From: Mitosporidium daphniae
Taxonomy: Eukaryota > Microsporidia
DNA: 48,884 nucleotides
Direction of reading: 5' to 3'
Assembly (NCBI RefSeq): GCF_000760515.2
Contig: NW_013546578.1
Span: 1-48,884 of the forward strand
Position 1 is the first letter of the stretch, and the number at the start of each line of letters is the position of its first letter. Positions 388-47,596 of this stretch are shown one piece after another. A program made the position numbers and the translations under genes. Below the pieces are notes generated by a model. That model ran no database searches. It saw nothing but the letters and a program-made list of their open reading frames with translations, and had not been told where the DNA came from.

Positions 388-434
388 AAAATAAAATTTA
401 TTGCTCGTTGTGCTACTTTTAAACCGGATTTAAG

Positions 435-1320
435 TTAACTAAAATCTGCCTCATCTTCTGTTTGAGGCTCGCTGTTTTCGGGCGAAGAGTCATGGAAGAG
501 GGCAAAGTTCACCTCAACAACTACCATTTTAGAGGAAAAAATACCTTCTTCATCTTCGGCCAAGCAACCAGCAGAGTCCGACTGCTGTTCTACTGAATTT
601 CGCTCAAATAACTGCCTTCCGGTCAGTTTTTGGGTGCCTGAAGATGTCTTTGGCTTGCTGGCATCAACTTTGTGAGCGTAAAACGACGTTTTCCATTCTA
701 AAAAGGCTTCCTCTGTAACAAGGGCTATATCCTCTCTCTATAATTAAAAATAGCAAGTACATTCAGCTCATTTTCAGCATCGTCTAGCCCCAATACATTT
801 AAAGATGACTCATGCGGCGTGCTTGAAAGTGTAGTGTCTTGCAGGATCTTTGTGAGAATGTGTACAGGTGCTGATAATTTCTCCTTGTTTTTGATCGAGT
901 AGTTGTCAATCCATTCTTGCAAAAAGGACAACAAGGGCAGCAGCATCGGCGTGCCGGTTAACAGGGACGCCTAAATTGACAAAGCTACAAAAACCTGCTG
1001 AGATAGCTCGGAAATAAGCGTAGATTTGTAGGATTGGGCTATTCCATCGAGTTCGGTTATTTCAAAAGAGGGCGAAATGTTTGGATATGATTCATTCGAT
1101 AAATGAAATCGTATCTTCAAACTTACTAAATTATGGGAGGATAATGTCAGGCGGTACATGATATGGAGCCTGTCGAGGTTCTCAATGATACTTCGATTCG
1201 AGTATAAGATCCTTCCTGTTCACTTCCTATAAAATTTGCATAACCCATGGTACCGGTTACATCGCTTCCATACATACATTCCAGGCAGAAAAGCTCATCG
1301 TGGATAATTGCATTTAACAT
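435..1320 (-). CDS. GIR2: RWD-domain protein, RWDD1/GIR2 (DFRP2) family
   Basis: Four exons: 1320-1158, 1125-995, 970-761 and 737-435, with introns of 32, 24 and 23 nt. The product is 268 residues. Exons 1-3 hold an RWD domain: 'DELFCLECMYG' near residues 8-18, 'SNESYPNISPSFEI' near 63-76, then a helix ending 'LLSFLQEWIDNY'. Exon 4 has the family's C-terminal signature, 'AFLEWKTSFYAHK' followed by 'KLTGRQLFERN', then an acidic tail. RWDD1/Gir2 binds the DRG GTPases and, in yeast, Gcn1, so it acts at translating ribosomes and in amino-acid-starvation signalling. Each splice junction restores the family reading frame. The start at 1320 puts the first RWD helix close to the N-terminus, as is usual. 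Confidence 0.82.
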
Positions 1321-1534
1321 GTAGGAAAAAATTATTTTTTATTATTTCCTTTTGACAAGAAACCCAGTAAGAAATCCGAGAGACAAAGATCCATATCTGG
1401 AAAACTATCAAATAAGAAGTAATTTTCACCAAACCTTCACAGCAGGTGAGGCAATCATTAATATAAATCGATGAAATCGCTTAAAATAAATACTATGTTA
1501 GTTAATATAAAAGCATTTGAGACGCATTCTCTAA

Positions 1535-1608
1535 GTTTCGATGGTGTAGTTGGTTATCACTTCTGTCTAACACACAGGCGGTCCTCGGTTCGATTCCGGG
1601 TCGAAACA
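1535..1608 (+). tRNA. tV(AAC): tRNA-Val(AAC)
   Basis: A 74-nt cloverleaf. The acceptor arms GTTTCGA and TCGAAAC pair. The D-arm contains GTGTAGTTGGTTATCAC. The anticodon stem is TCTGT/ACAGG around loop CTAACAC, giving anticodon AAC. The T-loop is GGTTCGATTCC. There is no intron. Confidence 0.95.
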
Positions 1609-1629
1609 TTTTTTATTTTCGTTTAAATA

Positions 1630-3903
1630 ATGATATTCTCATTTCTTCTGTTGAGTTTGAAAGTTGTCAGCGTCCTTGTTCTGTGCTATTTGATTGTCAG
1701 CCGCAAAAATAAAAGGTCAATATTGCCACCCGAGAGGAAGCCCAAAGTCATTGCTTCATCATCCGTTGGTGTTAAAATTTTTTTTGCCTCCAACAGCGGC
1801 CATTCTGAAAAATATGCCATTCTAATGCATGAATCGCTGTGCAGATTTTTCGCCAAGCATCCGAGTGCTAAGCGCAAATTTGCCTTATGTGGTCCCAAAT
1901 CTCTCGAGTACTACGACCCCGATGACCTTTATACTGAAGATTCCGTTTTATTCCTTTTTGTTCCGACATACACGGACGGACAACCACCATTGGCTGCAAA
2001 ATGGTTTTCCGCATTCTTGGAGGATGCTGCCAACGACTTTCGAGTGGATCGCTCAAGCCTGAAAAGGCTCAAGTTTGGTGTTTTTGGCCTTGGAGATTCT
2101 GCATTTGCCCCCGAGCATTTCAATACTGCTGGCCGTTGCATTGATAAAAATTTATCGTTGCTTGGTGCTACTCGAATCATCTCTTTTGGAAACGGCGATC
2201 AGCAAATTGACAGATTGAGCGTTTTGGGCGATTGGATTAACAGGGCGCAGCTTTTGCTAAGTTGCTATTCTGAAAATCCGGAATGGATCAGCATTCCAAT
2301 GGAGGATTTTTCTCAAGCACTGCCATACGAATCGGACGAAGATATTTCGTCTGAGCCGGTAATTGATATGGAGGATCTCGAAATTCTAGATTCGCAAGAA
2401 AAAACCATGCAAGAGGACTCTAATGGCCGCTATTTCTCTGGCGTTGCTATCCAAAGCAAAAGAAAATCTCGACTTGCAAATGTCGTGCCCGCGTTAGAGG
2501 AGGAAGATGACCCTTCATTTTCCAAATTTATTCTGGAACCTTCGCCATCGGAAGTGCCCATGGTGACGCCGGAAATCGGCAGGTCTTTAACCAAACAAAG
2601 ATATAAGGTTGTTGTGAGCCATTCTGGCGTCAAATTGTGCCGGTGGACCAAAGCAATGCTTCGTGGCCGCGGGGGATGTTATAAGCACACTTTTTATGGA
2701 ATTGAAAGCCATCGATGTATGGAGGCTACTCCATCTCTCGCGTGCGCAAACAAATGCGTATTTTGCTGGCGCCATCACACAAATCCGGTGGGAACCCGCT
2801 GGGTGTGGAAGCTAGATAGTGCGGAAAGCATTGTTTCTGGAGCGCTAGCCGGCCATGCTAGCATGGTTAAGCAAATGATGGGCGTCCCTGGCGCTTCGCC
2901 AGAGCGGCTATTGGAAGCGCAAGTTGTTAAGCACTGCGCGCTTTCTTTGGTTGGGGAGCCCATTATTTATCCCCACATTAACGAGCTGGTTGCTCTTCTT
3001 CATGAAAAGTCGATCTCCACATTTCTGGTTACGAACGCCCAGTTTCCAGATCGAATAGCTCAGCTTTCGCCCATCACTCAACTGTATGTTTCCGTGGACG
3101 CATCCACTAAGGCTTCTTTGAAAAAGATTGACAGACCCCTTTTTTCGGACTTTTGGGAACGATTTTTATGCTCGCTGAAGGCCCTCAAAGAAAAGGTATG
3201 GTGCCTTGTATTTATGTGCTAGAAACAACGCACCGTGTATCGCCTGACCCTTGTCAACGATTACAACACCGAAAACTTGAAGGAGTACGCCAACTTGGTT
3301 AATGTTGGGGTGCCCGATTTTATCGAGATCAAAGGTGTTACTTTTTCCGGGGCCGGCTCCACAGCCACAACAACGGGGGCCGATACATCCGCCTCCTTGA
3401 GAATGTCGAATTGCCCATTCCACCATGAGGTGGTTTCTTTCTGCCAGCAATTGTGTGCTCTTCTCGGGGGAATGTATTCGATTGCCTCGGAACATGCACA
3501 CTCAAACTGCGTGCTAATTGCACATGAAAAATTCTTCATCGATGGCAAGTGGTTCACTTGGATCGATTACGAGAAATTCCAGCAGCTTATTCGCCTGGGT
3601 CAACCCTTCACCTCTCTAGATTATGCCAAAGAAACGCCACAATGGGCCATGTTTGGTTCTGAGCATCGAGGATTTGATCCATGCGAAACACGGCATTATC
3701 GAAACAAGCAGCCCAAAGAGGCTGCGGTGGAGGTCACTAAAACTGGCAGTCCAGATGTGTGCTGTTCCACACAAAGCTCATCGAAAGATACCGAGAATCT
3801 CCCGAATTATAATCTCGCCACTTGTTCTTCTGGAGACTGTTGCATGGGGCAACGCCCAGAATCCGAGCCCGCTATGTGTGGAGACGCAGAGAGCCGCCCC
3901 TGA
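1630..3903 (+). CDS. TYW1: tRNA 4-demethylwyosine synthase TYW1
   Basis: Two exons, 1630-3195 and 3223-3903, separated by a 27-nt intron that ends in an in-frame TAG. The product is 748 residues. TYW1 carries out the second step of wybutosine synthesis at G37 of tRNA-Phe. Residues 3-24 form a membrane anchor, as in yeast Tyw1. A flavodoxin-like FMN domain follows ('FFASNSGHSEKYA', 'GVFGLGDSAFAPEHFN'). The radical-SAM core has C-x3-C-x2-C ('CANKCVFC') near residue 372. The join gives 'KEKKQRTVYRLTLVNDYN', closely matching the family. The last ~50 residues form an unusual cysteine-rich tail beyond the conserved 'GFDP' region. Start 1630 follows a short A/T-rich leader just after the tRNA. Confidence 0.95.
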
Positions 3904-5134: not shown

Positions 5135-7052
5135 ATGGAACCTTTGTCTCCATTTCCAACCTCGTTTTCCCCGAATGAAATAAGCGATTCAAATGATCCT
5201 TCGTCTTCGTCGTTATCGGCATCAGATACAGACCTCATTCAAGATGCATCTTTGGAAGAAGAGGATATTACTGCAATCTCAGATCAAAGTGCATGTCAGG
5301 ATTTGGAGGCGGGTAGTCTTTTATCCAAGGATATTGATGTTAATACCGGTGCACATATGCCCACCATTCGGCTCAAATTGGTTAATATTTTAAAGTCCTC
5401 CAACCAACCCTTGTTACGAGAATCCCTGGGCAAATGTATCTCGGCGCTCAAAGTGTAGTTTCGCCTTGGTGTTTTATCATTAGAAAGGATGCATATGGGT
5501 TTTTCTTGGAGCCCGTTGATACCTCGATCGTGACGGACTATTTGAGTGTAATCAAGAACCCAATGGATTTCCAGACCATTACTCAGAAAAACGATATGAA
5601 TCAATATTCATCATTCTCCCAAGTGCAGGTAGAAAATGCCCTTTTCATTGCCCTAGGAAGATTTCGAGCTTATCTGTTCAAATGCAATGACATACAATGC
5701 ACCCACAACCATTTATTACAAAAGCGCCCAACGGCTTTTGAACATAGGACGAAAGATCATCAAAAGAGAGGCTCTCAGACTCAATGATCGATTATTGAAG
5801 CTTGCTTGTAAAAAGCGGGCCAATATTGATTCCATGAGCACCCACTTTTCTAGCCAAGGGAAACGGCGTCGTCAATGCGAAAAGGGGCTGCTGTCGCTAT
5901 ATGACCAAGTCCAGCAAGAATTGTCCTTCAGGGCAAACGCTTTGCCCGTTTCAACCAGAAAGGTTTTAGAAGCTAAAGTCGCATTGTTCAAAAAATTTTC
6001 AGACGGCTCGTGGCTTTTTTCGAGCAGAAACAGAACTCAAATCCCGTCCGTTTGCTACAATTCCGATGGCTCTCTCAATTGTGGTATGTCGTGTTCCCTC
6101 ACTTTTATAGGACAAGAAAAGGATGTAAGAGAAATGCTGATCGGGCCATTTCACGACAAAATGGGATCTACAGAAAGTACGTTGTTACTTGGACCGTCTT
6201 CCCAGATCCTTGCATCCGTTTTGTCCAAGAATTTGAATTCCTCGCAAATGGTTGGCAAGCCGACCAGCAGTTTTTGGCTATCATCGCCTTCTAACTGTGG
6301 CTCCAGGTTTTACGATTCCTTGGGCTATCCGATTGAAGACTTTATTTCGCCATCCCTCTGCTTGGCATATGGCGATCCAAAAGGAAAGGAATTTATTAGC
6401 AAGCTTTTGCGAATGGATCAATCCACCTGTGACGCCTCCAGCTCTTCACCCTCTCGAATTTCCCGTGTGTTATCAAAGCTTGCAGACGACATGACACTGG
6501 GCGGCCATTCATTTATGGAAAGTATTGCCGCATTTAAGAATTCCGTGGGTAAATCGTCCCCGAAACATGAAGACCATGAAAAAACGTCAAACACAAATAT
6601 CTGCAATGCAATTACAAACAAAGAGGCGGAAGATCCTGGGCATGCTCCCCAAAGCAGCGGTGGCGGCGATCTTGCTGCTCCCCAAAGCAGCGGTGGCGGT
6701 GATCTTTCTGCTCCGCAAAATCCCGGGAATTACACAGCTTGTAACGATCAGCTTCTTTTTGAGATTTCTTCGCTGCTGATCAAAATGAATTCGATAAAAT
6801 CGCAACTGTTATCGTCTCGTTCTGTGGATCCAAGTTTAAAGGTTGAATTGGGCTCTGTTTCTTCTGAACTAAAGGAAAAATTGTCCAAAATTGCAAGACA
6901 ATGCTCTCCGGCTGACTTACTGGGGCCAAGGTATGTTTCCCTCACTATTCTTTAGGATGGAATCCACAAGACAGTTTATGAAAGATCTAATTGCCGACCC
7001 GATTCCTACAAGTTACCCTGGAACTTTGCCCACTGTGCCCATGCAGAAATAA
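5135..7052 (+). CDS. bromodomain protein, BRD7/BRD9-like
   Basis: Four exons: 5135-5454, 5484-5628, 5657-6930 and 6956-7052, with introns of 29, 28 and 25 nt. The product is 611 residues. An acidic, Ser-rich N-terminus precedes a bromodomain at about residues 105-190: 'KDAYGFFLEPVDTS', then 'IKNPMDFQTI', then 'CSNAMTYNAPTTIYYKSA'. The last segment carries the acetyl-lysine-binding Asn (MTYNAP). It appears only when intron 2 is removed. The bromodomain resembles BRD7/BRD9, which read acetylated histones in SWI/SNF-type remodellers. Membership of that complex here is inference. A Gly/Pro-rich duplication, 'APQSSGGGDL' twice, lies near 6645-6715, before a C-terminal helical region. Confidence 0.82.
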
Positions 7053-7329: not shown

Positions 7330-9424
7330 ATGAAGAACAAAAAAGGTAAGAATACCCGCTTTCATTTCATCATTCGTAGTTCGAGCCATTCTGCAGCGAG
7401 AAGAAAACTCGAGAAAATATGCCGCAAAAAATAAAAGAAAAAACAAGGCCGAATCAGAATCCGAGGCATCTTCTGCTTCGATGTCAGATACCGATATTTC
7501 ACTATCAGAGGATAGTTCCTTTTCAGAGGCAGAGTCCCTTGAAGCAGGATCTTTTTCATCTGAAGACGGACAGACCGATGATTTTGAGTTGAATGAGGAA
7601 GAAGGGGAGGAGGAAGAGGAGGAAGAAGGGGAGGAGGGGGAGGAGGGGGAGGAAGAAGGGGAACAGTCGAATCAGGATGATGACGAATTGGGAGGTATTG
7701 CCTATCCGTCCTCTTCGGAAGATGAAGAGGAGGCTTTCATTGAAAAGATTATTTATGATTCTGAAATTAAAGCCTGGAAAGAATCGGTGCATAAACTTTC
7801 CAACGCATCGAGTGTAGACCATGCACCGAGCATGGATTTTATTCGATTGGTCAAAAAAATCATCTCCGCTTGGAATAGAATGGTAAGCTCCCAATATCCA
7901 TCCTGTTCGCATCCAAACAAGAAAAACAAAAGGGCCTCCTCTTTGGTCGCCAAAACGCAGCAAAAAATAAGAGCCGAGACGGAGGACGTTGAGGTCGCTT
8001 TTTTCTCTCTTGTTTTTGAGAATATTTTCCGCGATTTTCTATGGATAAAATTTTCTAATTCCGGCTCTGCTCGCCCCCAGCATATGTATCCGGAAGAGGT
8101 CAAAAGGCTGCGTAATCCCATAAAGGGCGTCATTGAAGCTCTAACCTCAATATTTGACCATGCTCCATCAGGGTCTTGGATGCATACCATCATACTGGGC
8201 GAACCCCTAGAGAGAATGCTTCCATTTTTTGCTATCTTTCCTGTTGCGTTTTCACGATTGCTAAAGATTCTCATTACAAAGGTATGGATATCATTACCCG
8301 GCGAGAATGACGAAATGATGTTAAGCTTTAAGCGGCTACAGAGCTTTTTGCTAACAACATGCTTCAAGTACCCATCCTTTGCTAGCAAAATTGTTGTCAA
8401 GACAGCGTATGCATCGTGGATCAAATCTCTCGTTAATATGTCGGTCCACAAGCATGAAAATGCAGGTTTTTTGCTCGAATCTTTATGCGAGCTTTTCTTT
8501 GCCATTCAAGATGCACAGAAACAATATGACTTTGCGTTTCTTTCCCTAAGGGCTCTGGCCCTAAGTGCTAGATCCCAATTGGTAACTTGCGCCACCTCAT
8601 CGGAAAAAAAGAAGGGGCAACTTGTGGCACAAGGAGGGCAGCTAAAAGTTGTCCCCAAAAGCTGGACATTCATCTATGCCATACGGTTCTGGTCTCGTGT
8701 CATTGGAACGACAACCTCTTCCGTTGCGAAGGAAAATTCTCCATTGATGCTTTTAAAATATCCGCTTTTGCAGATAATATCTGCAGGCGTCGCCGCAAGC
8801 GGGAAGTGTCCCAGAGAAATCCCATACCAGCTCCACCTTGTAGATTGTGCCGTTTCCTTTTTGCAAGTGAGCATTGGGCTCCCTATTGAAACCCTATTAA
8901 GGATCATCAAAGAAGTCATCGAATCAATCCGGAAGCCGGGGAAGATGGATAAAAAGCCTGCAGATCCCGTATCTTTAGACTGGAAATCGTTGCTAAAAGG
9001 CCCTGCAGATGCATCCGCCGCCCCTTGGTATTGGGATTTGGTGGGAAGGCGTGCTTCATATCTATTTGCCAAATGTGCTTTATTGCACTCGTCAAGTGCA
9101 GATTTTCCAGAAGTCGTAGGATTGCCATTGCGCTGGGTATCAATTTTATTGAATTATTTGTAGATCCGGGGCTGGTTAAAAAACGAATGCAAGGACACAA
9201 GGATATCAATAGCAAAGAGACTTGTGCTTCTTGTTCGAACTTTGGAGGAGCATTCTTGCTCGATCTCCGAGGCAAGAAAGGGCCTCAACGTAACAAGTGT
9301 CATTTCGGTCGAAGGAAAGCAAGCAACATACAGTCACCTGATCGACACAAGCAAAACATCAAGTTCTAATCAATTGGCCACGGTTTATAAACAGTTTGCC
9401 AACGAGGATGGATCGATTAAATAA
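7330..9424 (+). CDS. NOC2: nucleolar complex protein 2 (60S ribosome assembly)
   Basis: Three exons: 7330-7345, 7380-9136 and 9164-9424, with introns of 34 and 27 nt. The product is 677 residues. The first exon encodes only 'MKNKK'. The basic N-terminus (AAKNKRKNK) is followed by a long acidic Glu/Asp region (about residues 35-100). The Noc2 core comes next: 'SFLLTTCFKYPSFASKIVV'-like helices, 'KSWTFIYAIRFWSRVIG', then 'LKYPLLQIISAG'. Noc2 pairs with Noc1 and Noc3 to move pre-60S particles through nucleolus and nucleoplasm. Removing the 27-nt intron at 9137-9163 replaces an early stop with 90 more residues ending at 9424. The 5' gap from the bromodomain gene is about 280 nt and A/T-rich. Confidence 0.85.
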
Positions 9425-9535: not shown

Positions 9536-10854
9536 ATGCCATTTCCTATCCAAGTTGCGGCGATAGCCATTTCCAATATAAGGAGATCAACCAGGTTTTC
9601 CAGATTTTTAGGCAAAAGGCATTTTGGTACTTTACCGATCCACTTATCATAGCGGAGAGAATCATCTGCACGCCAACTCTGGCTGATTCCATCACCGAGG
9701 GGGTGCTGTCTTCTTGGGAAAAAAGTTTCTCCACATGCATGGCTAATTTTTAGAGGTCGGCGACGTCGTTTCGCGAGACGAAGTGATTGCCAATATTGAG
9801 ACCGATAAAATCACCCTTCCCATTACCACTCCTGAGCATGGCAAAATTATAGAATTCTTTGCAAAAGAAGGCGACAATGTCACTGTTGGGTCGCAGCTAT
9901 TTAAAATCGACTCTTCTGCAGACACAGAGCATGTGGAAAAGCCGCAAGAGCCCGTAGCGACTTCTTCCCCTCAGGAAAGTCCAATTCAAACTCCCAAAGC
10001 AGCCGAACTACCTCAGAAGAATGTAAAAGCTGCCAAGGAGACAAAGGCTGTTGACGAACCCAAGTCCCCCTCAAAGACGGAATTAAGTTATAAGACACCG
10101 TCACCGTCGGGATCATCGGCATCCAGAACAGAATCGAGAAAACGGCTTACCCCGATGAGAGCAAAAATTGCAGCCCATTTGAAAGAATCGCAAAACATAA
10201 ATGCCTCCTTGACGACCTTTAATGAAATTGATATGTCTTCGCTGATTGAGTTCAGATCCATTCACAAGGACGCCGTTTTGAAAAATGATGGTGTCAAGCT
10301 TGGGTTCATGTCTCCGTTTATCATGGCCGCAACCCGAGCCCTCCAAGAAAATCCAATGGTTAATAGCCGAATTGAGGGCTCCGAGATCGTCACTCCATCT
10401 TATGTTGATATTTCGGTGGCCGTTTCCACGCCAAAAGGCTTGGTTACTCCGATTATTAGAGATTGCCAACTAATTACTAGCTTTGTTGAGATTGAAAAGA
10501 CTCTTTCTTCGCTTGCAGACTTGGCCAAGTCAAACGGACTCACCCAGGAGCACTTGAAAGGCGGCACATTTACAATCTCAAATGGAGGTGTATTTGGATC
10601 GCTCAGCGGGACCCCTATAATTAACCTGCCTCAGTCGGCCATATTGGGGATGCACGCAATCAAAGAAAGGCCCGTGGCAATCAAAGGAAATGTACCAGCC
10701 CCACTTGCCAACTCTAACCATATAGATTGTCATCCGCCCAATGATGAATGTTGCTCTTACTTATGACCATAGAATTATCGATGGAAGAGACGCCGTCATG
10801 TTCCTCGTCCGCTTGAAGGCTCTGCTGGAGGACCCTAGACTATTTCTATTATGA
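9536..10854 (+). CDS. KGD2: 2-oxoglutarate dehydrogenase E2, dihydrolipoyl succinyltransferase
   Basis: Four exons: 9536-9626, 9653-9724, 9754-10691 and 10726-10854, with introns of 26, 29 and 34 nt. The product is 409 residues. Start 9536 gives an Arg/Ser-rich mitochondrial presequence ([15 protein letters not shown]). The lipoyl domain follows, with '[16 protein letters not shown]' and the lipoyl lysine in 'IETDKI'. A Pro/Ala/Ser/Lys linker leads to the catalytic acyltransferase domain. The active-site motif '[14 protein letters not shown]' sits in the last exon, and the C-terminus '[10 protein letters not shown]' is typical. As in other eukaryotic E2o proteins there is no obvious E3-binding domain. 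This is the core of the TCA-cycle 2-oxoglutarate dehydrogenase complex. Confidence 0.95.
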
Positions 10855-11093: not shown

Positions 11094-13908
11094 TTACAAG
11101 ATACCATTTGAGTAATACTGGAAAGAATCATACAGCTTTGTAAAGATGTTGTCATATGAGGCGGAAATGAGTTTTTCCACATACTCTACCACCTCTGCGT
11201 CTGTGTAGGAAAGGACAAACCGTTCTCTGAGGTGGTACAGGGCAATGTCAGCTCCAGAGTAGAAGCATGCAAGCGAAGAGTCCTTCATCATCATCTCCAC
11301 AAGCAATAGGATGCGTTCCGAGTGCTTTCGCAGGGCAAGAAAGGCCTTTACAAATCGATCTCTGAATTCGTATTGAAAAAGCGGCGATTCGGCACCTCCA
11401 AGAATATCAACCCATTCTGAGAGCAATTTGAATGGCGCCGATTCAAACCCCACGTATCCCGGTGAATTGGACAGCATGAACCCGAAATCGATATGGATAA
11501 GGTGTCCCGAACTATCGATCAGAATGTTGCCATTGTGTCTAAATGTGATTGAGCCTCCCCTGTGTAAAGATACCTGTCCTTGAGTGCCAAAAGATATGTC
11601 AACAAAGAGTACCCGACCAGCGAGGCAAGAAAGGCTTCTCTCGCGTTGATGAACGACTTTGAGGTGATGTTCCCAAAATTCTATTCAAAGTCAGGCGGCC
11701 AAAGGCTTACCTTGATGAAATAAGTTAATAACGTATAGGACTGGGGATAATTGGGCACCTCAACATTTACATCTCCCTCTTCAAGGATGCAATATTGGAG
11801 CTCTGAATCAACCGCATGGATGAGATTTTCCGATAAAGGCTCGATGGAATCCCTTTCCACTGGCGAGGGCAGTTTCGAACTGACACAGATCCCTTCCTTT
11901 TTCAAAGAGTGCAGAGAGATCGAGTCCGTGATCGTCTCAATCAGCCCGGAGTTTCCGGATGTCACTAAAATTTGGAAGCTAGAAAAAAGCAATAAGCACC
12001 TACTATTTGAGCCACACCTCTTCCGAGGGCTCCAAAGAATCTTTCCAAATGCACAGCATCTCTTTGATGATCTGGACTGCAAGAAGTTCTTGACGCAAGT
12101 CGGCAGATGATTTGACAATCAGGGAATGAAGGGCCCAGCCGGATCTCCCACCAAAGGGCGAAGAAAGCTGTACCCGCTTCATCTTGTCTTGCCAATTTTC
12201 TTTCATTATCGAACCTACAGTAAATATTTACGCCAATCTCTCACATGATGGATCTTCATGCAGCATCTGGTCTTTGACAAGAGCCAAGTCATTTACGATG
12301 TTTTGACACTTATCGTTCCCTACGCTGATGAAGGAAGCAGCGCCAGAGGCCTCAGATGACGATTTTAGCTTTTGCAAGTCGAGTAACTCCATTTCCTTTA
12401 TGATCCGCGACCGAATGGTCGATATGGTGGCCGGGTTTAAATTTTTTGTAAGCGTCATTTGGTGAAGTTGTGCCAATAAAATGGCAGCCGTGCGCATTTT
12501 GTCGTAAAACTCGCACGCGCTTGTTGAATTCAACATGGAGTAGGAAGGCTCATTGTCTCTAAGAAGCTCCACATCAGATGAAGATGAAGAGGAAAAGGAG
12601 TCCGCTTCAAGCGGAGACTCAGAAGTGCAGTTGCTCTCCGTTTCAATAAGAATCATAAAGGGGACACGTTCTGCAGAATTCAGTACGACCGCCTCTGTGG
12701 GGCAGATTCGCAATATACGTGCGTGAGGAACGGCCGAATTTCGAAGGCATTCAGAGCACCAAAATGGGATACAAACATTGGCGGGTAGGTTGTGGTTGAG
12801 CAGGCTCAGTTCGGCCTGCAGGGCCTTTTGGCGTGACGACTTTGGAATGCGGAAAAGCCGTTCTGAAATCTCTGTCAGGGCACTAATAAAGGCCATCTCT
12901 GAGTGATAATAGTGCGTCGATTGAATGTCAGCACATAGCTTCGGCTCGGAAAAAAAGAGCGGAAGACTATTTTCCTCCGCATCTGCGATGCTATTGCTTA
13001 AAGATGATGATGCAGGAAGAGATGCAGATAGATTGTCTTGTTGTAGACAGGGTCTAGACTCTGGCCTTTCCAGACTGGTAGTCGATCGCGGCAATGACTT
13101 GAGTGTAGATATGGGGACTTTTGAGAAGGCGGTTTCCAGTTTTGAGAGCGAACGCTGCAGGGAAAAAGCCTTTCCCACATAAAACTCATCCCAGGAAGGG
13201 TTGATTTTCTCTGCAATTGCCTTCAAAATGGTAGCCATAGATTTTTGAGTGAGATTTGTATGCCCTTGTGCTCGATCTGGAGACCCGCCATCTACCTTAA
13301 AAAGTGTCGAAAGGCCTTGTTGCAGAGAAAACCGCCGAATCTCCTCTAGGCCTTGCGGAGAGACTATGGACGCAGCTATCGCTCCCATGCCAACAAAAAC
13401 TGATTTGATCGAATAGGGCGAGATTTTAAGTGGACATGACGCGCCTATTGGCGGCAAAGGAGTAAGGGCGAGCGATTCGGTGTCGTTCTGCAAAAGTGAG
13501 GAGTGGAATCGCGCCTTTAGCTTGGAAATCCTGCCGATATAGGTGGCAATCTTTTTTTCTGCAAAGTCGGCTTCATATGATTCCAGTAGCCATAGCACCT
13601 AGGGTAAAGGCAAATGAAAAGTACTGTAATGGAAAGATGAGACCACTTGGATCCAAGGTTGACAAGAAGGTTCTCCAAAGACACAGACTGTGAGGCTGTG
13701 CGGGTCACCAATAAGTGGCTACAATCAGCAAGGGCAAGACAAACCATAGTTGCGGGAGTAAAAACGAAATTTCAGATATCGGTTGCTCGCTAAGCCTTTT
13801 GCAAAGGTACTCTTGGATGCCTGGATCCAGGTATTTGTACAGATAAGAAACTGCAATCCATGTGTTGAAAAAGTCGGACTCAAAGAGACGCAACAGGAGG
13901 GACTGCAT
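11094..13908 (-). CDS. PIK1: phosphatidylinositol 4-kinase, PIK1/PI4KB type
   Basis: Seven exons: 13908-13745, 13718-13625, 13598-12245, 12214-12004, 11978-11713, 11682-11574 and 11538-11094. The six introns are 26, 26, 30, 25, 30 and 35 nt. The product is 880 residues. The N-terminus carries the lipid-kinase-unique helical domain ('LLRLFESDFF', 'YKYLDPGIQEYLCKRL'). A long Ser-rich linker is followed by the catalytic domain: 'SADLRQELLAVQIIKEM', 'DRHNGNIL' (catalytic loop) and 'HIDFGFMLS' (activation segment). It ends with the conserved 'TKLYDSFQYYSNGIL'. It makes PI4P at the Golgi. Three of the catalytic-domain introns fall inside invariant motifs, so splicing is essential. Start 13908 is the first ATG in frame. 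Confidence 0.94.
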
Positions 13909-16547: not shown

Positions 16548-17296
<749 letters not shown>

Positions 17297-30956: not shown

Positions 30957-32761
30957 CTAGTCCTCCAAATCTCCCTCTTCACTGCTCAGATCAGGCCCCT
31001 CGCTGCTGCTGTCCATATCCAGAATGGATTCAGAGTCTGCAGAGAGGGAGCTATCTTCTGCAGAAGAAACCTGCAGATCAGCCTCATCTGCAATGCCATG
31101 TTTGGAAAACCCAACTACATATACGCCTTGAGAGGATGAAGGCAGCGAGGATGCAACATTCCATCGACCAAGCCTATGTTCTCTGGAAAGTGCTATGGCT
31201 ACAGCACAGCGTGAAAGAGCTTTCAAAGAAGCCTTTTCCGTTGATGCCGAAAAGATTGAGGCCGAATGCAGCCAAGAAATGGAGGATATAAAGCCATTCT
31301 CTGCAATTTGAATGCATTGAATTTGCTCGAAAGTACTGAAATCCGAGGAGCACTTCCATATTTTTAACGAGGCGCGTTCATCTCCGCTTGCAAAAATCGC
31401 AGAATGGGGGAGCGCCGCTAAGGAAGAGGGCCGATGCTCCAGCTTTGCAGAGAACGAAAATTTCTTTTTCGAGCTATTCCAAAGGAATAGCTCTTGGCTT
31501 TCGCTAGCCACAACAAAGGCAGATTCTGTCAGCATGCAAACAAGATCCAATGTTCCCGATTCAAGGGGAGCATTGAAGACCAAATGGGTCGAGTCCATGA
31601 CCTTCCAAAGGCGAGCCGAGCGATCTCGGCCCCCAACACTCATGCAGCGTTCTTTGGAAAGAACACAAAGGTCCACTGGGGATTCCTGATGTCCAAATAG
31701 GGTGTCCACGTAGGCCAAATTTATTGATGCCTTTTCTTTATCTTGCTGGGCCTCGTTGGGATCATAGCTGAATTGCCAAATTTTGAGCGCTCTGTCGGTT
31801 GAGATGGAATAAAGATCGCTTTGAACAAGCCCAGAGCTGCTATTTGTAGTTGCCAAACGAAAACAAAGCCCAGTGATCGGGCCTCTATGATGGCGAAGAG
31901 CTCGAAGATATGAGCCCGAAGAAAGACTCCAAACGTGAATAATGGCATCCAGGCCACCACCGACCAAAAACTCACCATCTGGGGACACCGCAATTGCCTG
32001 AAGACCGAGGGCTTTTTTGGCATTGCAAGTGAAAGATTTCGTTGATGATATGCCTCTTAGGTCTTCGGTCAGAGTCCACTGAAAGATGCCCTTGCATTTT
32101 TTAGTGGCACCGAAAATGGACCTCGATGGGGAGTGGGTGCAAACCGCACTGGGCGGCCCATTCAGCAGGGACTGTCCTCCAGCGAGCCGTTTCTGGCCAA
32201 ACAACACCGAACATGCGGTATTTTCACGTGAAACCTAAGGTTTTCAAAATACGGCCATACATAAGTTCCGATGGGGGAAAACTTTTTTCCTTCCTTGAAA
32301 ATGGCGTCCTTAATGAGGCGCTGGGAGATTATATCGCGGTCAATTTCTTGAGCATCTATTTCACCCTCTGATTGTTCAGATGAGGATGAATTATCTCTTG
32401 AGCTTTCGTCAAGATCTTCCTCTTGCTTTGAAATGGATTCTACACGGGGTTAAAAAGATGCCTTACTGATATATTTTTTGGCGAGTTTGATGCGGCTTGT
32501 CGCATCATCCAGATTCTCATCTTGAGAGAGGGAATCGCCATCGCTTGCTTCGGAGGATGAGGATGAGGACGAGGATGCTTCTTTAGGTAAGGCAAAAGGA
32601 GCTATGCTGATGCTCGGTTTAGAATGCACCTTCTGTATAATTTTTGACGTCTTCATATTCTTAAGGCTTTTAAAGCTATTATTCGGCCGCTTGGCGGCCA
32701 CAGTGGCATTGGATGCCGTCAATTTTCGCCTGGACGAAACAGAAAAAAATGGGTCGTTCAT
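30957..32761 (-). CDS. RRP9: U3 snoRNP WD-repeat protein RRP9 (U3-55K)
   Basis: Three exons: 32761-32467, 32439-32261 and 32234-30957, with introns of 27 and 26 nt. The product is 583 residues. The N-terminus opens 'MNDPFFSVSSRRK', as in other Rrp9 proteins. A Ser/acidic stretch, 'RIKLAKKYI', and an acidic helix 'EIDRDIISQRLIKDA' come next. At least five WD40 blades follow, including 'DGEFLVGGGLDAIIHVWSL', 'SISTDRALKIWQF' and the diagnostic 'SVGGRDRSARLWKV'. Rrp9 binds the U3 box B/C motif in the small-subunit processome. The acidic C-terminal tail (SSSEGPDLSSEEGDLED) is extra. It starts 66 bases from the divergent SDR gene. Confidence 0.9.
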
Positions 32762-32827: not shown

Positions 32828-33819
32828 ATGCTCGCCGGAAAAACCATTTTGATGTACGAGCCTTTTCCCTTTGACTGCATTTCATAGTACTGGAAGTTCG
32901 TCTGGCATCGGGGCTGCGTGTGCAAGTGCCTTTGCGGCAGAGGGCTGTAAATTGGTTGGGCGGTCTCCATGCTTATCATAGATTCTTTGTGCAAGACGGC
33001 TTGTAAAGCTGGAAATTGTGAGGGAGCAAATCCTTTCTGCACATCCAAGCGCCTGCATTCTGATTTTGAAGCTCGACGTGTCGGATGCCAAAGAGGTGCG
33101 TAGTGTCCTTTCCTCGCTTCCGCCCGATTTCGGCGACATCGATATTTTGATAAACAATGCAGGTTTGCATAGATGGCTCAATCAAAGGACTTGCCATTGG
33201 CGTGGAGCAGATCTCTGAAAACATCACAGACGAAATGATCGATTCGATGCTGGATACAAATGTCAAAGGCGTGCTGTACGTGACCAGGGAAATTTTGCCG
33301 AAAATGCTGCAAAGCGGTCGCAACGGCCATATCATCATGATCGGGTCGATTGCAGGAGTCGAAGCATATTCTCGCGGGTCAATCTATTGCGCCTCCAAGC
33401 ACGCACTGAATGCGATATCCGAGTCTCTGCGGAAGGAACTCATTTCCACCCCGATTCGGGTCACCGAAATCCAGCCTGGTAAGCATTTGCTACGCAAGTT
33501 CGATTTTCTTTTTTTGAGCACCTTTGCATGGGGCGAGCTTTGCGAATGGCAGGCTTTTTGACAGCTTTTACACCCAACGTTGTTTTTACTGATTTCGATT
33601 TTAGGTCTTGTGGAGACAGAGTTTTCTCTTGTTCGTTATGGTGGGGATGTACATGCAGCCAAAAGAGTCTACAACGGCATTGAAGCTCTTTCTGCCAACG
33701 ATGTCGCAGAGGTAGTTCTTTTCGCTGCCACCAGACCAAAACATGTTCAAATTGCCACCGTCAAACTACTGCCCACAAACCAAGCAAGCGTTTTTGAGGT
33801 GTCCCGTACAAAAAATTAA
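32828..33819 (+). CDS. short-chain dehydrogenase, YdfG/YMR226C type
   Basis: Five exons: 32828-32853, 32888-32954, 32982-33162, 33188-33478 and 33605-33819. The introns are 34, 27, 25 and 126 nt. The product is 259 residues. The cofactor motif is 'TGSSSGIGAACA', and 'LCARR' after strand 2 suggests NADP. 'INNAGLAIGVE' (NNAG), the Ser of 'MIGSIAG' and the catalytic 'YCASK' follow. The C-terminal half, 'LVETEFSLVRYGGD' then 'VYNGIEALSANDVAEVVLF', is the signature of the YdfG/YMR226C group, NADP-dependent 3-hydroxy-acid (serine, allo-threonine) dehydrogenases. Intron 3 ends in AAAG rather than TAG, which is rare here. Confidence 0.93.
33479..33604 (+). other. 126-nt intron of the SDR gene
   Basis: It starts GTAAGC and ends TACTGATTTCGATTTTAG. 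It is one of five long introns in the window. No snoRNA box pair was found. Confidence 0.8.
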
Positions 33820-34728: not shown

Positions 34729-35525
34729 TTATAAGATTTTATTATTGGCCTGCCTCATTTTTTGGATAACCGCACGTGGGTCAGCAGAGTTAAATATTGC
34801 CGAGCCAGCCACGATTACATTTGCACCGGCCTTGATGATGTCACCGACGTTTTCCAAGGTAACTCCACCGTCTACCTCAATATCGAGATGGGGCGTAATA
34901 TTTCTGATCGCCTCAATCTATCGAAAATAAGTCAAATCACAGGCTTGTTAGATAAAGACAAGTCTAAAGCGGACACATGACATTACTTTGGGAATAATGG
35001 AGGGCATGAATTTTTGGCCGCCAAACCCGGGCTCTACCGACATCACTAACACCATGTCAATTGACTGGAGATAAGGAATCACATCAGAAACAGGAGTATT
35101 CGGCTTAATTGCAATGCCGGCCTTCATTCCGGTTTGCTTGATCTCAGCGATTAGATTGAAAATGTTTTCGATTTCAGACTCCAAATGGAATGTGAAAATC
35201 GTTGCTCCGGCCGCAGCCAGGGGTTTAACCCACTATGCATAGGAATGGGCTAAAATAAAATACCATCTTCGGATCAGAAACCATCAAGTGGCAATCAAAG
35301 ATTTTGTGTTGAACTTTTTCCCTCAAACATTTAACTACAGCAGGTCCGATGGTTAAATTTGGAACAAAATGGCTATTGGGGTGGGAAAAAATACACATAC
35401 CCATCCATAATATCAACATGCAGGGCGTCAGCCCCGGCGTCAATTACTCTTTGGCAATCGGCAGCCAAATTTGCAAAATCGCTCGATAAAATCGAAGGAG
35501 CAATGATAATTGGCCCGGCGGTCAT
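34729..35525 (-). CDS. RPE1: ribulose-phosphate 3-epimerase
   Basis: Four exons: 35525-35401, 35372-35264, 35232-34987 and 34917-34729. The introns are 28, 31 and 69 nt. The product is 222 residues, the normal length. TIM-barrel motifs are present: '[12 protein letters not shown]', '[16 protein letters not shown]' (metal ligands His and Asp), 'FDCHLMV', '[12 protein letters not shown]' and '[11 protein letters not shown]'. It interconverts ribulose-5-phosphate and xylulose-5-phosphate in the non-oxidative pentose phosphate pathway. The 69-nt third intron is of intermediate length. The gene shares a 62-base divergent promoter with the G-patch gene. Confidence 0.96.
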
Positions 35526-35587: not shown

Positions 35588-36050
35588 ATGAGTATGGCCC
35601 AAAGGAAAGAAAAGCAGCGTATACCAAATGATCCACGGGGGTTGCAGTGGCTCAAGCAAGGTATGAGACTTGAGCATTATTTCAAGTGCCAAAGGAAGAT
35701 ATGGGACTAAAGCTGCTGCAGAAAATGGGCTGGAAGCAAGGAGATGCCATCGGAGACACCATGGCGACCATCCAGCCTGTGATCAAGATAAAACCGAAAG
35801 ACCTGTCAAACGGAGGTATTTTCAGGCTTATTATAACTTACATGTAGGGCTTGGGCTATCTTCCGCATCAACTTTTAAAGAATCTCTGCTTTGTATAGAC
35901 ACCTTTGACGAGATCCTCAGGAGAATGAACTCAAATCAGCCATCGCTCAATAATATCACCACAAAAAAGGAGAAAAAAAAGAAAAAGGCATCAAAAGACC
36001 GCAAAAAGAAGAAAAGCTCCGCAATGGCGCCCACAACGCTGGATAGCTAG
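35588..36050 (+). CDS. G-patch protein, PINX1/PXR1-like, very short
   Basis: Three exons: 35588-35660, 35699-35815 and 35848-36050, with introns of 38 and 32 nt. The product is 130 residues. The N-terminus 'NDPRGLQWL' parallels 'DPRNTAW' of PINX1. A G-patch-like core 'KLLQKMGWKQGDAIGD' follows, then 'IKIKPK', 'GGLGLSS' and a basic tail 'KEKKKKKASKDRKKKK'. PINX1/Pxr1 (Gno1) activates the helicase Prp43 in rRNA processing. This version is less than half the usual size and several G-patch glycines are replaced, so the orthology is moderate. The 38-nt intron ends in GAAG, not TAG, which is the least certain junction. The tail may be a nucleolar signal. Confidence 0.62.
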
Positions 36051-39065: not shown

Positions 39066-40337
39066 TTAGCTCAGTGTGTTAATGTTGAGAAACGACATTG
39101 AGGTTTCGATGACATTGAAAATGGCCTTTTCATCCAGAAGCTCTTTGCTGATTTGAGATTTCTACGATTAAAAAAATTGCTAACCAGAGAGTAGGTACAT
39201 GTCGAATAAAGGGCACGCCAGGCCTCTTTGAACTGTTCTTGGGGCCCAGACTGGTCAATTCCTATCCTTTTAAGGGAAAGAACAAGGCATCGTTTGAGCT
39301 TCTAAAAGAAAAGATACCAAACATACGGCAATATTGATCTCTTTGACTTGGTCGTTGTTAGTTGGTGCATTTTGCGCGCCGCTGCGGATTTTCGGCTCTA
39401 TGGAATAAGTTAAATAAATACTTTTTCGAGTGGCGCTTGATAAAAGTCGGTGTTCTGTAATTTCAGCAAGGACACTCGCGGCTCTTGAGCGTGCACAAAG
39501 GCTAGAATACATGCCATCTATTTTGGGAACACGCCTGTCTATACAATTGTCTCCGTTTATGCAATCGTTGTTAGAAAACCCTTTAGCTAAATCCTGTTCG
39601 CAATCTTTGCGAATGACCTGATCATCTTTGTTCAAGGGCCATGGGTCACCTCTTCTTTCTAGGAAACCTGGCTCCTCAGCAAGGTAGCCGTTGAAAATTG
39701 ACCCCCCTTCATCTGGCTCCAAGAGAAAACAATGCGGTTCAACAGGCAACAAATTATAGCTACTCTTAGCAAGTACCAATATCAGCGAATTATTTTTAGA
39801 AATGTCAAGCAAAAACTGGGCATCCTCGCAGTGGGGGTGAAGGCTTCTAAAAATAAGCGAAAATGTGGCAACACTTGAATGGAGGGAGGCCTCTCGTTTC
39901 TTTTATTGCAAAGCGAGCCAATATGCAGCTCTGCTCTCCAAATAAATTCAGGCAGAACATATTGGGGCGAGCAGGACGTAATTGAAATTTCTACAAATTA
40001 TCGATACGCGCTGACCTTTACAAATGATTAGACAGAACGAGGAGGCATAGCCCAAGTATTTTTCTAATGCCCTTGAAGAAGAGGAAGAGGAAGAGGAGGA
40101 GGAGCAAGACGATGATGAGGTCGGGGATATTTTCTTGATAATTCCAAGGATGTCTTTTTCTGGAACCGAAAAGGCAGGCCAATGGAGGGGGCCCTGCCAC
40201 ATTTGACGAGGCTCGAAACCAGACTCAATCGCACTATGGGTAGTCTCTAGCGCTAAAAAGGGGCCAGATGTAAGTAAATCTTCCAGTAAAGCTAAGGGGC
40301 CATCCGTATCAGACGTAGAGTCCCTCGACGTCATCAT
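39066..40337 (-). CDS. orphan protein with a weakly SLD7-like C-terminus
   Basis: Six exons: 40337-40016, 39990-39959, 39930-39875, 39846-39327, 39301-39185 and 39161-39066. The introns are 25, 28, 28, 25 and 23 nt. The product is 380 residues. The N-terminal part has 'MWQGPLHWPAFSVPEKD' and a run of about 15 Ser. The middle has 'LILVLAKSSYNLLPVEPHCF', and the C-terminus is helical with 'LKRCLVLSLKRIGI' and 'IFNVIETSMSFL'. The C-terminal pattern and position recall the SLD7 C-terminal domain (a replication-initiation factor partner of Sld3), but the similarity is slight. The second intron ends in GCAG, and the exon chain through 39875-40015 is the weakest part. I would treat the function as unknown. 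Confidence 0.5.
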
Positions 40338-40428: not shown

Positions 40429-42022
40429 TCAGATGTCCGTTGACAGTTGCACACTTTTCTGCGCTGCCTCGGTTAGGTCGTCTATTGAGAAAATTTTTAG
40501 CTGACTATCGGCGATGATTTTCTTGGCCGAATCGACGTTTGTCCCTATGCGGTGTCAAAAGTTGCACTACCTTGAAGCCTCACCACCAATGGAACGTTGA
40601 TTTTGAGCGACGAGGCTGCCTTAACAATGCCCTCTGCGATGATGTCGCATCTCATAATGCCTCCGAAAATATTTACAAGAATCGAGGAAACCTAAAAAGA
40701 GAAATGGCCACTTACTCTCTTATCTGAGACCAGGATTGAAAATGCCTCTGAGACTTGTTCTACCGAAGCACTGCCGCCCACATCCAAAAAGTTGGCCGGA
40801 TCGCCGCCATGCAGCTTGATTATATCCATTGTGGCCATGGCGAGACCAGCTCCATTCACTATGGTAAGAAAAAAAAGCAGTAAGGGACATCGGGTCGACG
40901 TAGAATTGAAATTAGTGGGCGGGCATGAGGTTAGGGAAGACAATTGGGGTTGGAGGTGCATGCACTTTATGCTTTGCATGGCAAGCAGAGCATCATTGTA
41001 AGGCACGTTAATAACAAGGGCAAGCAACACATACCTAAGCAGCCGATGGATCCATCAAGACCAATGTAGTTCAATTTCGCCTTGGAGGCCAGTACTTCTC
41101 GCGGATCCTCCTGTTCCGGATCTCTCATGAGAAAAAGCTCCTGCTGGCGGAAATCTGCATTTTCGTCAATGTTTATCTTGGCATCGAGACAGATTAAACG
41201 GGGCTCCGTGGGCGACGCAATCTCGGAAAGGGGATTAATTTCGACAAGAGAGGCATCCTTCTCAATAAAAAGCTGGTACAGCCGAAGAATGGTGCCTCCG
41301 ACAAGCTAAATAGTTAGAAGAAATAACGGAGACGTCTAAATAACGGCCGGTAAAGCCCATTTTTGCGCCGAAGGTTTTCGCCTCGTCAAGGGAGAGTCCT
41401 AAGGGCAGATCGGCATCACCATACCTTTGGAGATATCAATAGGATATGTATGAATGGCTTCTGGACTTTGAGCCGCAACCTTCTCAATGTCCATGCCGCC
41501 TTGTGGAGAGCCGACCAGCATTGGTCCTTTGCAGTTTCGATCATAAAGTATGGCGAGGTAATACTCTTTGGAGGGAGAAAGAGCCTCGCAAATGAAAACC
41601 TTTGAGCACGGACGGCCTGCTGCCCCCGTTTGCTTAGTGACAAGGGTTGAGCCAATCATTTTAGACGTTTTTCCATATGCCTCCTGGGCGTCTGCAGCAA
41701 ACTGGATCCCACCACCGGGAAGGTTGGCCTTGCCGATCCAAGAGCCTTTACCACGTCCGCCAGCCAATACTTGGGCCTTGAGCATACACCCTAAATTGTG
41801 ATGTTCGGACCGCGTAGGGGAACCTTTTTTTGTGGCATGCATCTCCCAAAGCGACTTTGCATCGTTTGGATCTGTACAAAGCGATCCTCTGGCATGATCA
41901 ATCTTGTACTTTTCAAAAAGTGACATCGACTGGTATTCATGCAGCGAGAGGTAGCGTCTTTGCATCAATGCCGAGCATGATGGCAACGATGTGGGGCGAT
42001 AGAGACGTGTAATGAGCATCAT
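40429..42022 (-). CDS. LSC2: succinyl-CoA ligase, beta subunit (mitochondrial)
   Basis: Six exons: 42022-41425, 41398-41334, 41305-41035, 40858-40716, 40691-40571 and 40544-40429. The introns are 26, 28, 176, 24 and 26 nt. The product is 437 residues. The presequence '[15 protein letters not shown]' precedes '[17 protein letters not shown]', the ATP-grasp start of LSC2. '[14 protein letters not shown]', '[10 protein letters not shown]', '[18 protein letters not shown]', '[10 protein letters not shown]' and '[17 protein letters not shown]' are all present. It makes ATP or GTP from succinyl-CoA in the TCA cycle. An upstream ATG at 42139 extends the frame but adds non-conserved sequence, so 42022 was chosen. 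The 176-nt intron is the longest in the window. Confidence 0.95.
40859..41034 (-). other. 176-nt intron of LSC2
   Basis: It starts GTATGT and ends TTTCTTACCATAG with a T-rich tract before it. It is the longest intron seen. I looked for C/D and H/ACA elements and found no convincing set. Confidence 0.8.
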
Positions 42023-42320: not shown

Positions 42321-42366
42321 CAAGTACAATGTGCTTGACAAAAACTTTTAAATTGCGGCAATCAAT

Positions 42367-46285: not shown

Positions 46286-46294
46286 TAGGGTTAG
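46286..46294 (+). promoter_or_regulatory. TAGGGTTAG motif upstream of the P5B ATPase
   Basis: It lies about 120 bases upstream of the ATPase start, identical to the copy before RRS1. Confidence 0.3.
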
Positions 46295-46347
46295 ATGACA
46301 ATACGTTGACAATATAATATGATATTTGCATCAATTTGTGTAATAAC

Positions 46348-46389
46348 TATATTGGGGTTGGTAATTATATTGGGGTTGGTCATTATATT
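46348..46389. repeat. 18-bp tandem repeat, 2.3 copies
   Basis: Units 46348-46365 and 46366-46383 (tatattggggttggt plus aat or cat) differ at one base. A partial third copy follows. Confidence 0.9.
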
Positions 46390-46534
46390 CAATTCGGCTA
46401 GCCATAGTACTTGAACAGATCTGCTCAAGGGCTAGCTTTAGATGCAAACTTCCACAGCGAGTCTACCAATCGCTGTTCATCCGCTTCCGAGTCAAATTGC
46501 GCAGCTCTATATTGAAATATAAGCAGTTAGAATA

Positions 46535-47596
46535 TTACATTGATGGGATCTGTGGACATTTCTTTTTCAAGAGCGCTGTGAGAGCACGGTTTCCAACTTC
46601 GATGAAAAGATTGCAAGGTTTTGCAACAAGCGCATCGATAGTTTGTGTCCAATAGACCGGGGATATTATTTGCGACCGCAAATAGGCTTTTATTTGATGT
46701 GAATCAAAGGGATCCTTCATCTGATAAATTATCCTGCAATTCCTTGTTACCTCTGTAAGAATGGAGCTGGAGAAATACGAGCTTAGATGATTCTTGCACC
46801 TCGTGGTTTGTGCAAACTGAATCTGTTCTAAAGACTTTCCAAATTTATCTGAAGCCTCATTCATCAGTGGAGAGTGGAAAGCACCAGAGACAGGCAGCTT
46901 TTTTGACGAATTTTCGAAGAACAAATGTAGATCCGTCAGCCTTTTAATAGCTGAAGTTACCAAGGTCGGCGTTCCAGAAAGGATAATTTGGTCCGCGGCG
47001 TTATAACATGCAATCGCAAGCGAGGGTCTTGCTAGCAAGGCTGGTTTTGAGGATTCGACGTCTTCTGGATTACCATCCTTACTAAATTCCTGAATGCTTT
47101 TCCCCATATTATCCATCAGAGCCATTCTGATCTCCGAAAAGGATATCTTTGGCCTTAAACGAACGCTAACCATAATTCCGTTTGGAGAAAACTCGGACAT
47201 TGCTTTTGCACGCTCACCCTAACTAGTATGATTGACTGCGCAGTAGCTTACCACAATCGCGACACCCTGCTCCTGAGTGAGGAAATTGGCCGCCACAAGT
47301 GCAGTAATGTCGCCCAAAGAGTGGCCTGCAAAAATAAAAGCCGTGCTTTGATCCTTTTTGATAAGTGGTGGCAAATCAAGCTGAAACATCCTATTGAGCG
47401 TTGCAATGGAGGTGGCAAATTGGAGCATTTGAGCAAATTGTGTGTTTATGGTCTCTTGAGACATTGCTTCAAAAAGCCCCGGAATTTCAGAGCCGCAAGA
47501 GTCGAACATAGTCTTGAAATGGGAATTCATTAGGTAACGCCCCATGTTAGCATAATGATGGCCTTGACCAGGAAACAGAAGCCCAATTTTGAGCAT
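46535..47596 (-). CDS. MCT1: malonyl-CoA:ACP transacylase (mitochondrial type)
   Basis: Two exons, 47596-47252 and 47218-46535, with a 33-nt intron. The product is 342 residues. 'LLFPGQGHHYANMG' forms the oxyanion loop (GQG). 'FAGHSLGDITALVA' carries the nucleophile Ser, with Asp where most family members have Glu. 'GAFHSPLM' carries the catalytic His, and 'FIEVGNRALTALLKK' is the C-terminal motif. Stand-alone FabD-type enzymes in fungi serve mitochondrial type II fatty acid synthesis, which supplies octanoate for lipoate, needed by KGD2 in this same window. The N-terminus is short, with no clear presequence, so mitochondrial location is inference. Confidence 0.92.

Follow-up and report, generated by a model that had tools for sequence, protein, structure and literature searches.

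Spliceosomal introns of extremely small size have been described in several groups of eukaryotes. In mikrocytids, all introns are reported to be 16–17 nucleotides (nt) long, and Mikrocytos mackini is described as having 224 of them, highly conserved in sequence and combined with a reduced spliceosome (PMC10245619); the same source gives 18–21 nt for the introns of chlorarachniophyte nucleomorphs and 15–16 nt for those of heterotrich ciliates. Introns of Paramecium and other ciliates are put at about 25 nt, with in-frame stops enriched in those whose length is a multiple of three (3n) (PMC5014332), and Trichomonas vaginalis is reported to have type B introns of about 25 nt (shortest 23; n = 24) alongside type A introns of 56–196 nt (n = 39) (PMC12316389). 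Within the Microsporidia, Encephalitozoon cuniculi is described with 37 introns of 22–76 nt, bounded by GT-AG and with a branch motif, which are confirmed by RNA sequencing (RNA-seq), follow strict motifs and show low splicing, in a genome where U1 was not found (PMC3629993). We focus here on the introns predicted in Mitosporidium daphniae, a Daphnia parasite and early-diverging microsporidian whose published assembly is given as 5.64 Mb at 43% GC, in 612 scaffolds with 3,331 gene models (PMC5701793). The stretch under study, termed the window, is the whole 48,884 nt of contig NW_013546578.1 (positions 1 to 48,884). We conclude, with little doubt, that M. daphniae has ordinary U2-type spliceosomal introns, nearly all of 22–38 nt (median 27), which are recognised by intron definition.

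First of all, M. daphniae resembles the mikrocytids in being a parasite whose numerous introns span a very narrow range of small sizes, but these are of 22–38 nt and have loose motifs. Second, M. daphniae and E. cuniculi both belong to the Microsporidia in the wide sense and have GT-AG introns from 22 nt upward with a branch motif. In M. daphniae, however, the 5′ site is weak, a U1 gene is present, and scaling the 224 short introns of 230,756 nt to 4.66 Mb gives an estimate of about 4,500 for the genome. The few introns and strict 5′ motif of E. cuniculi thus have no counterpart in M. daphniae, where each kb of predicted coding sequence has on average about 1.35 short introns (224 in 165,715 nt) and a 5′ site in which, after GT, the third base A carries 0.94 bits and positions 4–6 carry 0.13–0.14 bits each. 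Third, a length of about 25 nt and stop-rich 3n introns recall Paramecium, which as a ciliate is unrelated to microsporidia; in-frame stops occur in 53 of the 69 introns of length 3n versus 74 of the 155 others (odds ratio 3.6), an excess that we do not count as selection because our gene finder, described below, tends to miss stop-free 3n introns and is thus biased toward it. Two length classes are also found in Trichomonas, which, unlike M. daphniae, has few introns and keeps better-conserved motifs in its long class. Finally, the nucleomorph and heterotrich introns are likewise extreme and narrow in range. Since these and the mikrocytid introns are shorter than those of M. daphniae, the size reported here is not a record, and an earlier reading of the window (the original prediction), which placed its introns near the shortest known outside nucleomorphs and ciliates, is not supported in view of the mikrocytid (16–17 nt), E. 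cuniculi (22–76 nt) and Trichomonas (23 nt) values. The human B complex, in turn, has been modelled to need about 52 nt from 5′ site to branch point, compared with about 19 nt in M. daphniae.

The length distribution was obtained from the window and 19 further M. daphniae stretches, together 230,756 nt or 5% of the genome sequence (4,662,434 bases, 147 contigs), to which the figures below refer unless stated otherwise. The finder uses codon statistics and may skip the stretch between any GT and any AG, all lengths of 12–200 nt being equally likely (the flat-length model), with splice-site weights self-learned from its own 22–38 nt introns. It placed 188 introns, 125 of them at 22–38 nt with a mode at 26–27, the remainder being spread over 12–21 nt (2), 39–68 nt (8), 69–120 nt (21) and 121–200 nt (32). 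A final model, which adds a preference for the learned lengths, gave 252 introns in genes scoring at least 3, 224 of them at 22–38 nt (median 27, mean 28.1), but this share is partly self-fulfilling because of that very preference, so that the 125 of 188 from the flat model is the fairer figure and provides the test. In both models the mode is narrow and lies below about 35 nt, as in ultrashort-intron systems. Because training on 22–38 nt introns might itself produce a peak, the same training was run with nine decoy dinucleotide pairs (one of which, GC-AG, is possibly a real minor class), yielding 14–29 introns at 22–38 nt versus 124 for GT-AG, and GT-AG trained on four other length classes placed 6–15 introns within the trained class. 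Less powerful procedures were set aside: initial finder settings proved overly stringent, a finder lacking splice-site weights gave a modest GT-AG excess (32 versus 6–21 for eleven decoys), and a scan with a strict consensus lacked power, matching 55 times at 22–38 nt where 23.5 were expected and just 7 times in the window.

These controls bear on the proposal that errors in sequencing or assembly gave rise to the segments, or that a permissive gene finder invokes them falsely to get past stops. The genome has a weak coding bias, introns longer than 68 nt are called at about the decoy rate, and one short window intron goes against a conserved protein start, all of which lend the proposal some weight. 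Decoy pairs, however, do not produce the peak, the final model rerun on its own spliced coding sequence yields a single intron in 165,715 nt (a control that is blind to errors outside coding sequence), and excision at GT-AG restores conserved residues; we thus regard errors as a very improbable source of these segments. Equally hard to sustain is the view that the introns are real and the short mode is local to the sequence examined. That sequence is indeed 5% of 4.66 Mb, but the short mode appears in each of eight stretches on seven contigs (median short intron 27–31 nt), and strict-motif matches across the whole genome also concentrate at 22–38 nt. The pattern used there (GTAWGT, YTAAY and TAG, 19–55 nt in total) had 61 matches in 4.66 Mb, representing 58 distinct strings, of which 46 lie at 22–38 nt versus 30.2 expected under equal gap lengths and 9 at 39–55 nt versus 26.2 expected. 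The sharp mode near 27 nt that the original prediction offered as its own check is thus borne out in 5% of the genome, and the weaker whole-genome check agrees. Identical intron strings also occur on the contig pairs C47/C84, C53/C99 and C59/C138, which suggests duplicated or haplotypic contigs.

Homology provides a separate view of the boundaries. We scored the succinyl-CoA ligase beta gene (minus strand) against a profile of 117 homologues, with the M. daphniae protein left out, and an acyl-CoA synthetase gene (plus strand) against one of 120 homologues. The spliced succinyl-CoA ligase beta reaches 592.0 bits and excision restores conserved protein at all five introns, the score falling to 183.3 bits when intron 1 (26 nt, 41399..41424) is retained, to 200.8 for intron 2 (28 nt, 41306..41333), to 340.8 for intron 3 (176 nt and thus of the long class, 40859..41034), to 579.7 for intron 4 (24 nt, 40692..40715) and to 537.0 for intron 5 (26 nt, 40545..40570). 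Over the five junctions, the called GT-AG pair beats all 12 other GT-AG pairs within 24 nt. The public M. daphniae protein P0121 (DI09_23p250; window 40429–42184) is 100% identical, in local alignment, to the spliced model of 40429–41965, from which it differs by a longer start and by two extra residues at one junction. It agrees with introns 1, 3, 4 and 5. Its one difference within the span of the model is at intron 2, for which it implies a length of 22 nt; against the profile, 28 nt scores 4.4 bits higher. The spliced acyl-CoA synthetase reaches 810.7 bits, with support for four of its five introns: the score drops to 90.8 bits on retention of intron 2 (31 nt, 23203..23233; other GT-AG pairs at least 29 bits worse), to 240.1 for intron 3 (29 nt, 23646..23674; other GT-AG 10.4 bits worse), to 315.4 for intron 4 (34 nt, 23836..23869; other GT-AG 16.4 bits worse) and to 739.4, a cost of 71 bits, for intron 5 (23 nt, 24756..24778; the other two GT-AG pairs 5.3 and 22.8 bits worse). 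Intron 1 (32 nt, 22832..22863) lies at the very start of the gene, where its exact ends are ambiguous and the retained version carries no reported score. Furthermore, nine of ten further spliced proteins match Pfam, with domains crossing 12 short and two long junctions. In total, alignments to known families contain 20 of the 45 short introns of the window, together with three of the long class (69, 126 and 176 nt), and at these GT...AG ends excision restores conserved protein, as is characteristic of U2-type introns.

The signals inside the introns are of the same kind. The 5′ site is weak and AAG/GTAWGT-like, only GTA being well conserved, and the 3′ end is TAG in 192 of the 224 short introns. 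A motif search inside the introns found a branch motif, YTWAY, whose fourth base is A in 84%. The branch A is followed by a median of 7 nt to the 3′ end (quartiles 7 and 9) and preceded by a median of 19 nt from the intron start (quartiles 17 and 21; 17 nt in introns of 25 nt or less), and variation in length resides almost wholly on the 5′ side of the branch site (r = 0.83 versus 0.15 on the other side). A YTNAY-like branch site this near the 3′ end (YTWAY, 7–9 nt away) is again what U2-type introns carry. The matching small nuclear RNAs (snRNAs) are encoded in the genome, with one match each for U1 (83.6 bits), U2 (137.2 bits) and U6 (90.8 bits), and their recognition sequences are canonical for the U2-type spliceosome (ACTTACCTG in U1, GTAGTA in U2, ACAGAGA in U6). 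A PRP8 domain lies within an open frame of 2,419 amino acids, and a KH domain of SF1/KHDC4 type is present. The search for U2AF65 returned RRM-like pieces only, none above the cut-off, and those for SF1-HH and for RED_N and LisH_TPL, which would mark the RED and SMU1 genes of Smu1/RED-dependent short-intron splicing, returned no match; RED_N and LisH_TPL gave none in control genomes either, so that absence of the genes is not implied. The splicing kinase CLK is given as not found in M. daphniae in the account of others (PMC12795684), and Stentor, a heterotrich with tiny introns, is listed as having IK (RED) and SMU1 (PMC9505925). The TAG end, the positioned branch motif and the spliceosomal snRNA genes make it scarcely credible that the segments instead stay in the messenger RNA and are hopped over by the ribosome, the translational bypassing known from the byp elements of some yeast mitochondria, whose similar size range is what this idea has in its favour.

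We thus return to U2-type introns recognised by intron definition, for which we propose the following scheme. The whole intron would be recognised as one unit, with U1 meeting the weak 5′ site and U2 meeting the YTWAY branch site 7–9 nt before the TAG end. Any remaining length would then separate the 5′ site from the branch point, and a floor of about 22 nt would be set by the closest approach of 5′ site and branch site that is possible inside the spliceosome. A minority of longer introns would persist, some of them perhaps spared by small nucleolar RNA (snoRNA) cargo. From the anatomy of the introns and the presence of the snRNA and protein components, we infer that these RNAs are actually spliced and that small size may aid recognition, with spliceosome geometry as the presumed origin of the floor.

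In addition to the partly built-in share of the final model, several points weigh against this reading. Every intron here is a prediction from sequence, and homology covers only 20 of the 45 short window introns. With acceptor weights that extend over the final ten bases of the intron, the finder itself in part selects where the branch motif falls. In the whole-genome scan, the pattern read backward gave 108 matches versus 61 forward, so there is no excess in total and only the length distribution supports introns genome-wide. Some non-GT-AG cuts in succinyl-CoA ligase beta tie with the called one, and a few score higher: 12 of 655 alternative cuts at its intron 2 (best +2.5 bits) and one of 624 at its intron 4 (+0.8 bits), as well as 2 of 708, 2 of 683 and 4 of 624 at acyl-CoA synthetase introns 1, 3 and 5, by at most 0.9 bits. 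None of the higher-scoring cuts in either gene is GT-AG, however, and the best GT-AG alternative is lower at each junction. Gene models are also imperfect. Of the 51 introns that the final model places in the window (genes scoring at least 2), 45 are of 22–38 nt and six are longer (69, 88, 126, 176, 295 and 384 nt), and we judge those of 295 and 384 nt to be false because each fuses two genes, namely thymidylate kinase to what we take to be a SKI2-like helicase, and a presumably bystin-like gene to a phosphatidylinositol (PI) kinase. A short intron at 21941–21965 is probably false as well, since it would break the conserved start of an unspliced frame that appears to be ribosomal protein L19.

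With these three discounted, the window holds 44 short and four long introns. The original prediction had counted 50 short and five long (55); both classes are recovered here, with a different count, and the one-by-one comparison covers the five introns that it named. Its five smallest introns (738–760, 971–994, 24756–24778, 39162–39184 and 40692–40715), which were not given to the finder, are all GT...AG on the coding strand and returned as the same sequences in the flat version and the same intervals in the final one; the weakest is 39162–39184, in a protein with no Pfam match and called by coding statistics alone. The claim that no intron lies between 39 and 68 nt holds for the final model in the window, but the flat version has one there at 39–55 nt, and outside the window the final model has introns of 40, 44, 49 and 66 nt, so that the gap is nearly empty rather than absolute. 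The "collapse" in intron size of which it spoke would be a historical process, to which the present-day lengths may point.

Among longer introns the picture is different, in that most of those above 68 nt are probably false, their frequency being close to the decoy rate. Homology support for the introns of 69, 126 and 176 nt nevertheless means that not all introns are short. Of the 26 introns longer than 60 nt, two contain a C box together with a D box, where shuffled sequences lead one to expect 0.07. One, of 167 nt (C2:8511-8677) and in a gene that we take to encode ribosomal protein S3, holds a match to snoR1 (L003:8587-8654, minus strand) of 36.1 bits, with E values of 4.3e-6 in a 401-base scan and 6.8e-4 in a 64 kb scan; the other, of 149 nt (C64:5439-5587) and in a gene for an RRM-like protein, holds a match to SNORD18 (L007:5479-5561, minus strand) of 34.2 bits, with E values of 7.7e-5 in the short scan and 0.014 in the larger one. 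Both scores are below the Rfam gathering scores (49 and 41, respectively) and none of the four long introns accepted in the window has an Rfam match, which counts against a role for such cargo; by their boxes and Rfam matches, the two introns probably carry C/D snoRNAs. The broader idea that most long introns hold snoRNAs was rejected, as only these two are boxed and Rfam scans of the 230,756 nt give a snoRNA match in no other long intron. Cargo of this kind may exempt an intron from shrinking, a suggestion drawn from two cases that leaves most long introns unexplained. A weak match to SNORD49 (L003:3566-3647, plus strand; E = 0.45), with C and D boxes, lies outside predicted genes.

What is new here may be an intron-rich relative of the microsporidia in which introns are shrunken but not lost. 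In the data of Lim et al. (PMC8476143), Rozella has 2.53 introns per kb, and the figure averaged over 15 Microsporidia is 0.01; the density of about 1.35 short introns per kb of predicted coding sequence in M. daphniae lies between these values, which suggests shrinkage before loss. It is conceivable, if on balance doubtful, that M. daphniae represents a missing middle state, in which introns first shrank to the physical floor of the spliceosome (about 19 nt versus about 52 nt for the human B complex) while U1, U2 and U6 stayed canonical, wholesale deletion followed later in other microsporidia, and snoRNA-bearing introns were spared. Were this true without a RED gene (none was detected, which does not imply absence), B-complex geometry would be unlike that in human. 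If confirmed by RNA-seq, the lineage would make it possible to study whether shrinkage precedes intron loss, and it would offer an intron-rich system with canonical snRNAs for studying spliceosome function at a 5′ site to branch distance of about 19 nt. On the practical side, a gene finder that requires introns of at least 40–50 nt would mis-annotate this genome, and in the public model P0121 one of five introns differs from the homology-favoured one. In the open literature we found no paper announcing M. daphniae intron lengths; the founding genome paper lies outside it, so an earlier publication is possible. The main text of the Paramicrosporidium genome paper (PMC5701793) mentions no introns, and that of a 590-species analysis (PMC11649378) names neither Microsporidia nor Rozella.

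The remaining predicted introns of the window are as follows. On the minus strand, a gene with RWD and DFRP_C domains has introns at 971..994 (24 nt, within the RWD domain) and 738..760 (23 nt, past the RWD domain and bordering on DFRP_C), both placed by the Pfam scan, and at 521..544 (24 nt), called by the coding model only and weak, being of length 3n and stop-free if retained. On the plus strand, an intron of 27 nt at 3196..3222, which introduces a stop when retained, lies in a gene presumed to be TYW1-like. A bromodomain gene has four on the plus strand, at 5455..5483 (29 nt, domain edge) and 5629..5656 (28 nt, within the domain) from the Pfam scan and at 6084..6110 (27 nt) and 6931..6955 (25 nt) from the coding model only, which is also the source of those at 7346..7379 (34 nt, close to a gene start) and 9137..9163 (27 nt), likewise on the plus strand. 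The Pfam scan places 9725..9753 (29 nt, plus strand) in a 2-oxoacid dehydrogenase E2 gene, within its lipoyl domain, and 11539..11573 (35 nt), 11681..11710 (30 nt) and 11979..12003 (25 nt), all minus strand, within a PI3/PI4 kinase domain; three more in this PI kinase gene, at 12215..12244 (30 nt), 13599..13624 (26 nt) and 13719..13744 (26 nt), come from the coding model only, as does 16127..16153 (27 nt, minus strand). Two on the plus strand, 16735..16761 (27 nt) and 16998..17023 (26 nt), lie within a thymidylate kinase domain according to the Pfam scan. The long intron of 88 nt at 20655..20742 (plus strand), in the presumed SKI2-like helicase, is a prediction of the final model; its flanking residues appear to continue gap-free in terms of the family.

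Further along, the Pfam scan places 28009..28037 (29 nt, plus strand) within a mitochondrial carrier repeat. Two minus-strand introns, 32235..32260 (26 nt) and 32440..32466 (27 nt), are called by the coding model only in one gene, which we take to resemble a WD-repeat protein. A short-chain dehydrogenase gene on the plus strand has 32854..32887 (34 nt) at its domain edge, 32955..32981 (27 nt) and 33163..33187 (25 nt) within the domain, and the long intron of 126 nt at 33479..33604, all from the Pfam scan. Gene scores are low for the minus-strand ribulose-phosphate 3-epimerase, with the long intron of 69 nt at 34918..34986 (Pfam scan) and one of 31 nt at 35233..35263, and for the plus-strand gene with 35816..35847 (32 nt). 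The minus-strand gene whose protein lacks a Pfam match has, from the coding model only, 39162..39184 (23 nt), 39302..39326 (25 nt), 39847..39872 (26 nt) and 39991..40015 (25 nt), as well as 39398..39421 (24 nt), which is weak, being 3n and stop-free if retained. Finally, an acyltransferase gene on the minus strand has 46507..46538 (32 nt), with a stop when retained, and 47219..47251 (33 nt), within the domain by Pfam scan.

Apart from introns, an inverted repeat at the end of contig C2 (L004:6708-6922) matches two miRNA-precursor families, one per strand, and is perhaps an assembly artefact. In the window, ARAGORN predicts two tRNA-Val genes, at 1535–1608 (plus strand, anticodon AAC) and 4990–5062 (minus strand, anticodon CAC), of which only the former also matches Rfam, and a short tandem repeat of ACCTTCTTG occupies positions 1–60, at the start of the contig.

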